Part shown: piece by piece, positions 10,763 through 15,327 of the stretch
Layout of the letters: every line of letters starts with the position of its first letter
Numbering within the stretch: the first letter of the stretch is position 1
From: Thermoplasmata archaeon
GTDB taxonomy: Archaea; Thermoplasmatota; Thermoplasmata; Lutacidiplasmatales; UBA184
Reading direction: 5' to 3'
Assembly: GCA_021817605.1 (NCBI GenBank)
Contig: JAKAUN010000009.1
Coordinates: 62,001 to 126,000 of the forward strand
Length of the DNA: 64,000 bases
Translations under genes and position numbers: made by a program
Notes under the pieces: generated by a model
What the model was told of the DNA's origin: nothing
What the model saw: only the letters and a program-made list of their open reading frames with translations
The model's database searches: none

Positions 10763-13456
10763 CTACGAGCTACCGGACGGGGGACTCGGGCCCGACGGGG
10801 GGCTCGGGGTTCCCGTAGCGTTTCCTCCGCTCACCCCGGCCGGGGGACTCGGCGCCGGCGGCGCGGGGGTTGGCGCCGCCTTGCGGCGCCGGCGGACGAG
10901 CAGCAGCGCCGCGACCGCGACGATCAGCACGATCGCGGCGACGAGCCCGAAGACCCCCGGCGGGGTCGTCAGCAGGGTGAGGAACGACGTGCTTGCGCTC
11001 ACGGTGAGCGTCTTGGTCTGCGATACGCCGGCCGCGTCCGTCACGACGACCGTCACGGTGTAGGTTCCGGCCTTGCTGTAGGAGTGCGTAGGAGTCGCGG
11101 AGGTCGAGCTCGCGCCGTCCCCGAACGACCAGGCATAGGTGTACGGGCCGGTCCCGGCGGAGACCGGGACGCCGAACGTCACTTTTGCACCGGTCTGCGG
11201 GCCCGTCGAGCTCGCCGTGATGCTCCCTACCACCATCGCCGGGTGCACGGTGACGGTGGTCGAGGTGCTCGCGGTGAAGCCGGCGGAATCGGTGACGTTG
11301 AAGTAGACGGTGTAGGTCCCCGGGGTACTGAACGTGTGGGTGGCGTCCTTGGTCGACGCACTCGCCCCACCACCAAACGCCCAGGAGTAGGTGCTGTAGG
11401 TGCCCGACCCGGCGGAAGGGGTCCCGGCAAAGAGGACGGGGGCGCCGGCGTCTGAGGGGCTCGGCAGCGCGGCCGCCGAGGCCTGAAGAGCCGGGTAGAC
11501 CAGCACAGAGAAGCTGATGTTGTTGATGCCGCCGCCCAGATCGGTGACGCGGACCCAGCCGTGGTAGGTTCCCGGCTTGGCGTAGTTATGGGAGGGACTC
11601 GTCAGCGTGGAGGTAGAGCCGTCCCCAAAGTTCCATACGTAGCTGTAACCCGGCGCCCCGCCGGTAACGGCCTCCGAGAAGGACACTGCCGCTCCGACTT
11701 CGGTGGGGGCAGGGGTCGCGACGACCGGGGGGGCGGACATCGACGCGTTCACCTGGATGGGGCTCGTGCTCGTCCCAAAGACGCCGAAGAAGTCCCAGAC
11801 GCTCGCGTAGAGTGCGTAGAACCCGGGGGCGTAACCGGTGTAGTTGAAGTCGTAGGAGAACGTCAGGCTCGCCGCGCTGGTGCTGGACGAGTTGAAGAAG
11901 CCCAGGACGTTGTTGCCCAGCGTGATGTCGAAGAGCTCGTACTGCAGATACGGTCCCGTTCCCGTCCCTTGCTTGATCGAGGACTGGACGAGGGCGTGCG
12001 CCCCGGAATCCACCGGGTCGACGGCGGATATCGGCGGGGTGACCTGGGGACGGAAATCGAGGACCCAGGTCGAGTTGCCGCACCCGTAGTAGGGGGTGCA
12101 GCCGACGCCGCCAATGAGGACCGGTGCTATCACGGAACTGTTGGTCGGCATCGCTCCGAAGAGCACGGTCGGAGGCTCAGTCAGGTTACTGTTGGACGAC
12201 TGGCTCGGCGGAAACCAGGAGCCGTTGTCGAAGAACCACGTGCCGTTGTTCGCGCCGAGGGCGCCGTACGCCTCGAACATGACCACGGCGCTGATCTGGC
12301 CGTCCCAGGTCATGCTCCCGGCCGCCGAGGGGGCCGGAGAGGAGCAGCCGCCGGCCGCGCACCGGACGGAAGTGGTGGTGATGTTGTACCAGCCTGTGGC
12401 GTTGAGCTGCCAGGTGTCGTTAAGCGTGGCGTTGACGAGAGGCCCGGTGACCTCCCCGCCGTAGAGCAGCATGTAGGCGTCGTTGTAGTCGTAAGCCATT
12501 TGGCTCGCGTACGTCCGGCCTGGGCCGCCAAGGACGGCGGTGTAGTTTACCCACTGCCAGACCCCCGGGCTGCTCTGCTCGAGCATCCAGGTCTGATTGA
12601 GGTTCGTCGAGCAGTTGAGCTCGCCGCAACCGTTCACCGAGACGAGGGCGTTGTAGACCGGGTCGTACGCCACGCTGCTCAGGTAGCCCAGCGGGGCAGC
12701 CCCCCAAGCGAAGGTTTCGTTGGTCCAGGACCCGTTGAACAGCCACGTCTCGTTGCTTAGCGTCTGGCCAGCGTAGAGGCCGCCGGTGAGGACCAGACCC
12801 CCCAGGTCCGGCACCCACGTCAGGGAGGCGTGGGCGAGCCGGGTCGGGAGGCCGCCCGCGGATAACCCGAGGGAGAGGGTCTCGTTGTACCAAAAGTTGC
12901 CAAAGTACGCCCAGGTGTCGTTCGTTGCGAGGAGCGAGTAGCTGTCGCCGAAGACGACCAATGCACCGAGGATAGGATCGTACGCCGCGGCCGCAGTACC
13001 CCCTCCGTTGGAGGGAACCCCCGACGGGCCGGTCATATAGCTGGTCTGGTTCGTCCAGTTGAGGAGGTCATTGCCCGCGGCTGCGGGATGGACCGACGAG
13101 GGCCTGTTCGGGGAGGCAGCGGCCGCCGCGAGCGGCTCGGCGGCCTTGGACGGGGAGCTCACTCCACAGGAGAAGGAGTTACCGCTAACGGTCGAACAAA
13201 GCCACGGTACGCCGCCCGCAGGCCCGGCTCCCTGCTCCAGGCTCGAGAGCCCAGCTCCGTCAGACGTCGAAGACGCACGGGGTGAAAAGGTGGCGGCGGG
13301 GCTGGCGGCAGGAGCTGCGAGCGACCCCGGGCTCGCGGCGCGCGTCGGGGTTTGCTGAGAGCTTGCCGTAATTCCTACGGCCACGAAGGCAGAGCTCATC
13401 ACGAGAGCGATCGTCACGACTACCAGCCCAGCGGCGTACCACAGGCCACGGTCCAT
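10763..13456 (-). CDS. secreted kelch-like/PKD surface protein with C-terminal anchor
   Basis: 897 residues. An N-terminal signal/TM segment (YAAGLVVVTIALVMSSAFVAV) precedes a kelch-like propeller region with repeated DTWAYF, NETWLFNGSW and DTWQLNATGW blades. Three PKD domains follow, marked by WNFGDGSTSTL, WAFGGGASAST and WSFGDGASSTS. One TM helix (VFGLVAAIVLIVAVAALLLV) and RRRRK come near the C-terminus, then a Pro/Ser/Gly tail. NxS/T sequons are very frequent, fitting an N-glycosylated cell-surface adhesin or S-layer-associated protein. The start MDRGLWYAAG lies about 29 bp from a weak AT element. It is monocistronic. Confidence 0.85.
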   Translation of the reverse strand: MDRGLWYAAGLVVVTIALVMSSAFVAVGITASSQQTPTRAASPGSLAAPAASPAATFSPRASSTSDGAGLSSLEQGAGPAGGVPWLCSTVSGNSFSCGVSSPSKAAEPLAAAAASPNRPSSVHPAAAGNDLLNWTNQTSYMTGPSGVPSNGGGTAAAAYDPILGALVVFGDSYSLLATNDTWAYFGNFWYNETLSLGLSAGGLPTRLAHASLTWVPDLGGLVLTGGLYAGQTLSNETWLFNGSWTNETFAWGAAPLGYLSSVAYDPVYNALVSVNGCGELNCSTNLNQTWMLEQSSPGVWQWVNYTAVLGGPGRTYASQMAYDYNDAYMLLYGGEVTGPLVNATLNDTWQLNATGWYNITTTSVRCAAGGCSSPAPSAAGSMTWDGQISAVVMFEAYGALGANNGTWFFDNGSWFPPSQSSNSNLTEPPTVLFGAMPTNSSVIAPVLIGGVGCTPYYGCGNSTWVLDFRPQVTPPISAVDPVDSGAHALVQSSIKQGTGTGPYLQYELFDITLGNNVLGFFNSSSTSAASLTFSYDFNYTGYAPGFYALYASVWDFFGVFGTSTSPIQVNASMSAPPVVATPAPTEVGAAVSFSEAVTGGAPGYSYVWNFGDGSTSTLTSPSHNYAKPGTYHGWVRVTDLGGGINNISFSVLVYPALQASAAALPSPSDAGAPVLFAGTPSAGSGTYSTYSWAFGGGASASTKDATHTFSTPGTYTVYFNVTDSAGFTASTSTTVTVHPAMVVGSITASSTGPQTGAKVTFGVPVSAGTGPYTYAWSFGDGASSTSATPTHSYSKAGTYTVTVVVTDAAGVSQTKTLTVSASTSFLTLLTTPPGVFGLVAAIVLIVAVAALLLVRRRRKAAPTPAPPAPSPPAGVSGGNATGTPSPPSGPSPPSGSS

Positions 13457-13750
13457 GGGCGCCTCCAGCCGTGGTCGGGCTTTTGAATGTTGTGTCGGGA
13501 GTGGGTGGGGACTAGAACGAACTCCCAGAGGGCCGGGCTGGGCCACCCTGCTTGGAGGTACCGACCCTACTCAGGGTAGCCGCGAAGGGCGACCGCAAGC
13601 CCCCCGATGATTAAGGCCGGTCTCGAGCCCTCGAAAGTCGTCCTCCGCCGAGCGGGGGGCGAGGATCCCCGCACGACGGCCCCGACCACCGACAACCAAG
13701 ACACCACCGACCAGGAACCTGCCCGGGCATCCCCCCGACCGAGAACACGA

Positions 13751-13768
13751 CATCTGCATATGCATATG
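13751..13768. repeat. orphan copy of the 18-bp VapB operator motif
   Basis: catctgcatatgcatatg is identical, in the same orientation, to 15220-15237 immediately upstream of the VapB-like gene. It contains the palindrome catatgcatatg. No antitoxin-like frame follows this copy. An 18-bp AT-rich exact match in ~68% GC DNA is unlikely by chance. Confidence 0.7.
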
Positions 13769-14295
13769 TTGACTGGCCGTCAGCTGCCATGCGGGCCCGA
13801 GAAACCTCCGCCACGCGCAAGGGTCGTTCGACTCCTAGAGGATTAGCCGCCAAGCCGGCGGAGGACAGGCGGGGCTCCCCCGATCGCTCGGCGAGGATAC
13901 CGGATGGACCGGTGTCCAAGTGTTCCGAAGAAACCTATCGGAGACACGAGAGACACGCTTCTCGCGGTCCCCAGAGACGCACTCTGCGCTCTCCGAAGCC
14001 CGGACTTCAGGCCCCCTCGGAGACGCCGAGCTCGCCGACACAAACCGTCAAGCCCGCGATGGATCCCGTCCCCACCCACGGAGGCCCCGCTACGCTAACG
14101 CCGCGCCAGGGGCACGCGGCGGGAGGGGCCCCGCTGCGCAATCCGCACCCCCAACCCCACACTGGACCTCTGGACGCCCCCGGGAGCTCCCCCCGGACCT
14201 CGGGAGCTCACGACGTTGCATGCGACGGACCCACCTGGCCGATCGCGGGCGCCCCTCCAACAGGGTCAGGCCCTCAAATTTGCCCCAACGGCCTT

Positions 14296-14315
14296 CGTAT
14301 AACTCCTGTTATACG
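14296..14315. promoter_or_regulatory. AT-rich inverted repeat
   Basis: cgtataac and gttatacg flank a 4-nt spacer in the gene-poor stretch. A TATA-like caaattt (about 14276-14282) lies just before it. It looks more like an operator than a terminator because it is AT-rich and precedes no T-run. A short basic frame (MPPTRPPHPMRRGRKQRL, 14331-14387) follows but is not supported otherwise. Confidence 0.35.
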
Positions 14316-14610
14316 CCGTCTCGAGAGAGAAATGCCGCCGACCCGCCCCCCACACCCTATGCGACGAGGGCGTAAGCAGAGACTTTAGACACGCATATTA
14401 CGTGACAAGCACGTCACCCGATGCCAATAAGTGGAACTGGTAGGAGAACAGGACGCCGACCCGAATCTGGCCCGTAGACCCCACCCCTTTGCGTGCAAAT
14501 GTGGGCGATCGCGGCCCGTACGGGCCCCACCGCCACCCGGCGAGCCCCCGCAGGAGCCATGTTTCACCCCTAAGAGATATGGAGGAATGGTAAAAGCGCA
14601 ACAAGCATTA

Positions 14611-15015
14611 CTACTTGCCACTTAGGCCGAAGCGACGCACTTTGAAGCGCCAGCGACCGCGGAGCTCCGCAGGGCTGGAAGTCAACAGCTCGTCACAGCC
14701 GGCCGCCTCGAACGCACCGAGAGACCCCAGCACCGCAGGAGGGAGAGCCCCCGCCGGACCGGTGAGATGCCGCGCCGCCTCCTCGATCGCGCGCGCGTCC
14801 AGGGGAAGGACCGTCAAGCGCCGCCGCAGCCGCGCAAGCGCGGTCCGACGGGCGAGCTGGGAGTTCGAGCCACCCCGAGCCGCGAGATACCCCAGCTCGA
14901 GGAAACAGGCCTCCGTCGTCGCCAGCTCCTCCCCACGAAGTCGGCGGAGCTCCTTGCGGGCCGCAGGGGAGCCCTCGAGGATCTCGAGAAGCGCCCACGT
15001 GTCGAAACCCTTCAT
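14611..15015 (-). CDS. VapC-like PIN-domain toxin, degenerate active site
   Basis: 134 residues. The N-terminus MKGFDTWALLEILEGS and the ATTEACFLELGYLA helix match the first acidic residues of PIN ribonucleases (Asp5, Glu near 36). The usual second-half acidic motifs are altered: the position normally read as an ADALIAA-type helix is PPAVLGSLGAFEAA, and the usual TGDPDF-type end is TSSPAEL. So two of four metal-binding acids may be missing. The ATG overlaps the antitoxin stop by 4 nt (ATGA). It may be an inactive or altered toxin. Confidence 0.75.
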   Translation of the reverse strand: MKGFDTWALLEILEGSPAARKELRRLRGEELATTEACFLELGYLAARGGSNSQLARRTALARLRRRLTVLPLDARAIEEAARHLTGPAGALPPAVLGSLGAFEAAGCDELLTSSPAELRGRWRFKVRRFGLSGK

Positions 15016-15218
15016 CGTCCGCGCTCCCGTCTGAGCCCCCGTAGCAGCACGCGATCGGCCTTCTTGCCGGCGACACCCCACGCCCCCACGAGGTCCTCCA
15101 GGCCACCCCGCTGCTCGAGTAGACGCCGAAAGAGCTGAGTGAAGCTCTCACCGCGGCGCTTCTCCCGCAGCAGCGCCTCGAAGACCGCCTTCTGAATGGC
15201 CACGTTGTGCGATGGCAT
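15012..15218 (-). CDS. VapB-like antitoxin (DUF217/PF02697 type)
   Basis: 68 residues. The signature KRRGESFTQLFRRLLEQRG is the GESF motif of the archaeal VapB family, after an N-terminal strand MPSHNVAIQKAVFEALL that would form the DNA-binding part. It precedes VapC with a 4-nt ATGA overlap, the classic antitoxin-first order. The start codon is 2 bp from the palindromic 18-mer and about 25 bp from a TATA-like gaaata, so autoregulation by binding between promoter and start is likely. The basic C-terminus (KKADRVLLRGLRRERGR) is the expected toxin-binding tail. Confidence 0.8.
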   Translation of the reverse strand: MPSHNVAIQKAVFEALLREKRRGESFTQLFRRLLEQRGGLEDLVGAWGVAGKKADRVLLRGLRRERGR

Positions 15219-15219
15219 G

Positions 15220-15246
15220 CATCTGCATATGCATATGCTGTATTTC
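15220..15246 (-). promoter_or_regulatory. VapBC operator and promoter
   Basis: catctgcatatgcatatg (15220-15237) covers the space between the TATA-like element (minus strand gaaata, 15241-15246) and the VapB ATG at 15218. It includes the self-complementary catatgcatatg. A repressor here would block the transcription start, which fits antitoxin or toxin-antitoxin autoregulation. Confidence 0.65.
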
Positions 15247-15327
15247 AAGCTCGACTTGCTCACGCGGGAGAAGCCGCTCCGGACCGGGGAGTGCCGAAGG
15301 CTCGCGGCAGGCCGAAAGGGCCCCGGT

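Follow-up and report, generated by a model that had tools for sequence, protein, structure and literature searches.

An AT-rich 18-bp motif with the look of a toxin-antitoxin operator occurs twice, about 1.5 kb apart, in the 64,000-nucleotide stretch of Thermoplasmata DNA analyzed here (the window), and the question is what the copy that lies away from the operon is for. The first-pass annotation had reported CATCTGCATATGCATATG in the same orientation at 13751-13768 and 15220-15237 and had argued that such a recurrence exceeds chance, and both statements hold. With up to three mismatches allowed, the entire genome (1,746,615 bp, 16 contigs) yielded just these two places, with zero matches for the reversed-pattern control, and the 18-mer did not occur in 100 dinucleotide shuffles of the window; the independent-base expectation is approximately 2e-6 for the genome at 70% GC. 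The shared orientation is true of the 18-mer but carries little meaning, since the match in full extends over 20 bp that are nearly palindromic (13750-13769 and 15219-15238), and both copies fit the degenerate palindrome ACATATG-N6-CATATGT.

The vapBC operon and its operator motif

As previously described, the copy at 15220 sits between an AT-rich TATA-like stretch, TTGAAATAC, and the vapB start codon (ATG at 15218, minus strand); a single base pair separates it from the latter. The features of the operon are as follows.

15239-15250, minus strand: vapBC TATA-like box, GCTTGAAATACA, approximately 26 bp before the ATG, predicted from sequence
15219-15238, minus strand: site 1, predicted VapB operator motif, GCATATGCATATGCAGATGC, situated between that box and the vapB start codon
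15012-15218, minus strand: vapB, 68-aa antitoxin of the VAPB_antitox family (Pfam PF02697, 28.3 bits against a cut-off of 27.9)
14611-15015, minus strand: vapC, PIN-domain protein (Pfam PF01850, 33.1 bits, over the cut-off)

The motif was scored over 14 consensus positions with a threshold of at least 11/14. In 33 of 33 genus loci first examined, it lies 16-26 bp (mostly 20 bp) upstream of vapB, and this conservation among relatives supports the earlier proposal of a VapB-type operator motif. In the 28 loci compared, the TATA position ahead of site 1 is enriched in AT, and the distance of approximately 26 bp between the box and the ATG is consistent with a leaderless vapBC mRNA. The interval between the TATA-like box and the ATG, where site 1 lies, is a normal location for an archaeal repressor. 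The two genes overlap by 4 bp (ATGs at 15218 and 15015), giving the VapBC type II arrangement of a VapB-family antitoxin upstream of an overlapping PIN gene, together with a promoter palindrome whose conservation points to an operator. The VapB model, with helices at residues 10-19 and 26-36 after an extended N terminus and a pLDDT of 70, is compatible at moderate confidence with a ribbon-helix-helix fold; no convincing relative of VapB was found among solved structures. High-scoring VapB orthologues are present in more than 25 genomes of the same genus (Thermoplasmata metagenome-assembled genomes).

The second site and the dif-like element

The copy at 13751-13768 had been labeled an orphan and read as a possible decoy, a site for another transcript or the remnant of a second locus. 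A pattern search of 61 genus genomes found motif pairs 1.2-2.6 kb apart in many of them, and site 2 is present in 28/28 oriented loci with enough downstream DNA, at +1123 to +1995 (in the other 5 of the 33 vapB loci the contig ends too soon, and these were left out). It was also found in additional loci, in G117, G061, G072, G077, G068, and G067, and in G066 together with a weak site 1, and it occasionally appears as overlapping registers of one site. Besides sites 1 and 2, the 255,752 bp of oriented loci contain zero further motifs at or above 11/14. The orphan label is thereby withdrawn, and a constant site at an equivalent position beyond vapC does not fit a decoy. Both motifs are under continued constraint in the genus loci, with no decay, and the window pair is almost certainly an instance of a conserved VapB-type pair.

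Comparison of the two sites over the 28 loci gave a likeness of 15.4/20 within genomes and 15.6/20 between genomes (p = 0.91), so that each is to be seen as a separately maintained version of a single degenerate motif. The exact 18/18 identity in the window is thus partly luck, and in the window site 2 fits the consensus better than site 1 (13/14 versus 11/14). The same evidence, sites no more alike within than between genomes and a partner that is always there, excludes a second vapBC locus, whether recently duplicated or surviving as a remnant, and likewise a target-site duplication from vapBC insertion. The second site and the conserved DNA on its vapC side are listed below.

14315-14331, minus strand: conserved 17-bp flank of the dif-like site on its vapC side, TTCTCTCTCGAGACGGC (genus consensus approximately YTCTCTGACGRAGARGYC), defined by column information content
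14292-14319, minus strand: dif-like 28-bp site of 11-6-11 layout, ACGGCGTATAA-CAGGAG-TTATACGAAGG, recognized by anatomy, recurrence, and arm covariation
13750-13769, minus-strand sequence ACATATGCATATGCAGATGT: site 2, second VapB-type motif, the lone conserved second site beyond the dif-like element

No gene adjoins site 2 constantly across the genus loci; the first neighbor differs, and in two species, as read from sequence, a convergent gene has its 3' end at the site. A TATA-like box is found near site 2 in 2/28 and 1/28 loci on its two sides, compared with 12/28 at site 1. With a TATA box missing on both sides and no constant gene, a role of site 2 as a promoter operator was rejected, and the suggestion of a site for another transcript loses its footing. 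In the window, the first gene past site 2 (10763-13456, minus strand) encodes an 897-aa cell-surface-type protein with three PKD domains, and relatives carry other genes at this position.

The DNA between the vapC stop and site 2 spans 520-1390 bp and is mostly gene-free. Its sequence is not conserved except for the dif-like element and a short, partly shared stretch around GACGTCGGAAAGGCC, approximately 60-120 nt after the vapC stop, which is common to L075, L076, L077, L078, and L081 and absent from the window. No ORF in this gap is conserved across the genus. Two species, L077 and L078, carry a common inserted ORF of approximately 216 aa (E = 6.5e-68 between them) between the dif-like element and site 2, a possible reason for the greater spacing in these two. 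Rfam and tRNA searches of the gap were empty, excluding a structured non-coding RNA of a known family or a tRNA.

Invariant between sites 1 and 2 is an element of the pattern GTATAAC-NNNN-GTTATAC (GTATAA-CNNNNG-TTATAC), with 11-bp arms and a 6-bp spacer. It lies between the two sites in every locus with site 2, in G067 in a diverged form only, at 820-906 bp from the vapB ATG (1312 bp in one species); its distance to site 2 varies from 263 to 1113 bp, with no fixed geometry on that side. The motif GTATAACNNNNGTTATAC was found in 39/61 genus genomes (reversed control 0), once per genome except in G003 and G076, which have a second match on another contig, and the 22/61 genomes without it are mostly incomplete assemblies. 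Several genus genomes (e.g. G006, G007, and G080), most of them incomplete, have neither the operator pair nor the dif-like motif; G080, which matched neither, is 93% complete. The motif recurs singly in other genera of the family, in family f2 of the same order, and in many genomes of family f19 of the same class.

In the 28-mer alignment the arms are symmetric over 11 bp, and spacer positions 13-16 are asymmetric with no covariation. The arms covary between lineages (e.g. GCC/GGC, GAC/GTC, and GAA/TTC), and in sites from beyond the genus the bases of pair 4/25 are complementary every time (14/14, expected 5.9), with three pair types. Two diverged sites, ATGTTGTATTG-CAGGGA-TTATACAACAT and ATTTTGTATAT-CAGGGA-TTATACAAAAT, keep the arm symmetry with other letters. 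Two 11-bp inverted arms around a 6-bp spacer are the published anatomy of archaeal dif, and a mostly single copy in gene-free DNA likewise agrees with an archaeal Xer/dif site. Taken on these grounds, the 28-bp element is probably a dif site and looks like the chromosome's single Xer recombination site throughout the genus. Approximately 30 bp beyond the element, L074, L099, and L100 carry a partial inverted copy of the flank (GTTATACGAC...GAGA), perhaps a second XerA half-site or an accessory site.

XerA, chromosomal position, and linkage across the family

The genome encodes the recombinase expected of an archaeal Xer/dif system, a 304-aa XerA orthologue (E = 1.6e-71 against XerA of Thermoplasma acidophilum, 5hxy), and a strong Xer-like match is present in most genus genomes. 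In this genome xerA lies away from the dif-like site, and in Thermococcales xerA is likewise distant from dif. GC skew is weak, with its maximum near the dif-like site in only one of three contigs, and no polarized words pointing at the site were found. In four complete f19 genomes (G149, G153, G134, and G129), the candidate dif (e.g. GTATAACAAACGTTATAC) and the main orc1 gene are separated by only approximately 6-28% of the chromosome. Such candidates, if truly dif, do not face the origin, and archaeal dif has been reported as not normally opposite oriC (PMC5357621); the orc1 distances neither support nor exclude dif.

In the other genera of the family in which both flanks are available, vapBC adjoins the dif-like site in 5/5 loci (G095, G085, G196, G144, and G189), with the vapBC orthologues approximately 550-800 bp from it. 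The second motif is found beyond the dif-like site in both genomes of genus g24, and in g25 the motif lies on one side of the site; in g27 the operator motif has diverged and a second site was not recognized. The linkage of vapBC with the dif-like site persists across at least four genera while the outer gene order changes. Downstream synteny with ilvE in 15/28 loci indicates that the locus is vertically inherited. Beyond the family, different genes surround the dif-like site and vapBC is not among them, so that any role of vapBC at dif would be lineage-specific.

Possible roles of the paired sites

The simplest account of all these features is a VapB(C) complex on both sites that organizes the dif-like site between them. 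The 20-bp palindrome, of which the 18-mer is the core, would be the binding motif of a ribbon-helix-helix-like VapB. Site 1 would serve as the autoregulatory operator at which VapB(C) represses its own genes, and site 2 as a dedicated distal site retained on the far side of the single-copy dif-like site. Known VapBC complexes are hetero-octamers with a DNA-binding domain at each end (PMC3384007); VapB or VapBC bound to both sites could bridge or otherwise organize the approximately 1.5 kb with dif inside. The resulting nucleoprotein structure may regulate when or how XerA recombines dif, and the state of the loop would be coupled to vapBC expression. This reading, in which VapB(C) occupies both sites, represses its own operon at site 1, and organizes the DNA around dif, is tentative; we see slightly less than an even chance for it, and much the same holds for a functional coupling of the sites to recombination. 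The more specific proposal, in which a toxin-antitoxin complex whose toxin is degenerate has become a dedicated dif accessory factor that folds the locus, gates XerA, fills the role of FtsK or of ArgR/PepA, and reports dimer resolution through its own promoter, is speculative and rather doubtful.

An alternative is that site 2 is a distal auxiliary operator and that looping strengthens vapBC autorepression, as at lac and gal, with dif in between because vapBC settled there long ago. One motif is common to both sites and to nothing else in the genome, site 1 is plainly placed as a promoter operator, and no promoter accompanies site 2, all of which such looping would accommodate. It leaves unexplained, however, the constant placement of site 2 beyond dif and the linkage of vapBC with dif across at least four genera amid changing outer gene order; closer spacing would also be expected, and 520-1390 bp of mostly gene-free DNA would not be needed. 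We regard this alternative as unlikely, if less so than the others. The palindrome between the sites could instead be bound by another protein, in which case this would be an undescribed chromosomal locus for regulation or segregation, enclosed by two VapB sites, and a terminus-type skew and polarized words are indeed not seen there. The 11-6-11 anatomy with its asymmetric spacer and covarying arms, its mostly single copy per genome, its recurrence across families, and the presence of a XerA orthologue make this quite improbable. Control by site 2 of a separate transcript (a non-coding RNA, an antisense RNA, or a downstream gene) would suit a motif type that normally regulates promoters and a gap in which a conserved gene is missing. 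The scarcity of TATA-like boxes at site 2 relative to site 1, the changing first neighbor with the convergent 3' end in two species, and the unconserved intervening DNA without an Rfam match leave little room for such a transcript, which we consider highly improbable. Least probable of all is that the locus is what remains of a dif module or of a mobile element dependent on Xer, with vapBC an addiction cassette integrated at dif and the second motif the ancestral far end: Acinetobacter dif modules are known to carry toxin-antitoxin genes (PMC6449649), and such genes adjoin the dif-like site here, but each locus has one such site rather than two flanking ones, has held its position across dozens of species with neighbors such as ilvE partly kept, and retains two motifs still under constraint.

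The proposed bridging of both sites by VapB(C) can be compared with several known systems. In its antitoxin-toxin pair, predicted N-terminal DNA-binding antitoxin, and palindromic operator over the promoter, the locus resembles VapBC type II loci such as Neisseria FitAB and Shigella VapBC; it differs in a second operator-type site approximately 1.5 kb away beyond a dif-like site, in a VapC without the third catalytic aspartate, and in being a chromosomal locus conserved genus-wide rather than a patchy mobile module. Archaeal Xer/dif systems, with XerA of Pyrococcus abyssi and T. acidophilum, share the single-copy 28-bp site with 11-bp arms and a 6-bp spacer, the conserved flank, and the non-adjacent xerA, but not the predicted antitoxin-type binding sites on both sides. 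Control of Xer sites by accessory transcription factors is known at the plasmid sites cer and psi, with ArgR, PepA, and ArcA, and by analogy a transcription factor beside the core site may shape the synapse here; the position of sites 1 and 2 suggests such an accessory-complex role. In contrast to cer and psi, the accessory-type sites here lie on both sides and hundreds of base pairs away, the proteins would be VapB and VapC, and the system would be chromosomal. Toxin-antitoxin genes adjoin Xer sites in Acinetobacter dif modules as well, but those are mobile cassettes between two sites, unlike the one vertically conserved site bracketed by operator motifs found here. In the literature searched, Acinetobacter plasmids are where VapB, a dif site, and Xer are mentioned together, and no description of the vapBC-dif bracketing arrangement was found.

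Archaea lack FtsK, with no equivalent known, and the question of how they steer Xer/dif recombination to the resolution of dimers is still open (PMC8371274). The arrangement suggests that, in cells without this bacterial controller, an old toxin-antitoxin complex has come to assist in managing the resolution of chromosome dimers. A predicted repressor with just two sites in the genome, one on either side of the dif-like site throughout the genus, offers a named protein, named DNA sites, and a simple test. If the suggestion is true, a chromosomal toxin-antitoxin pair has been kept for chromosome maintenance after the apparent loss of a toxin active-site residue, and such retention bears on the debate over why chromosomal toxin-antitoxin loci persist. 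The reference catalytic acids of the PIN domain are Asp-7, Glu-42, and Asp-98 of Shigella VapC, of which Asp-98 is an active-site residue (PMC3384007). The VapC of the window keeps Asp-5 and Glu-40 (the glutamate of an LEL motif), and the third PIN aspartate is absent, so that the full catalytic set of a type II toxin is not present; in alignments to relatives and solved VapC structures, the position matching Asp-98 is non-acidic in the aligned VapC proteins. We infer that the ribonuclease activity of this VapC is weak or absent, and the apparent loss of the catalytic residue is in keeping with a structural role.
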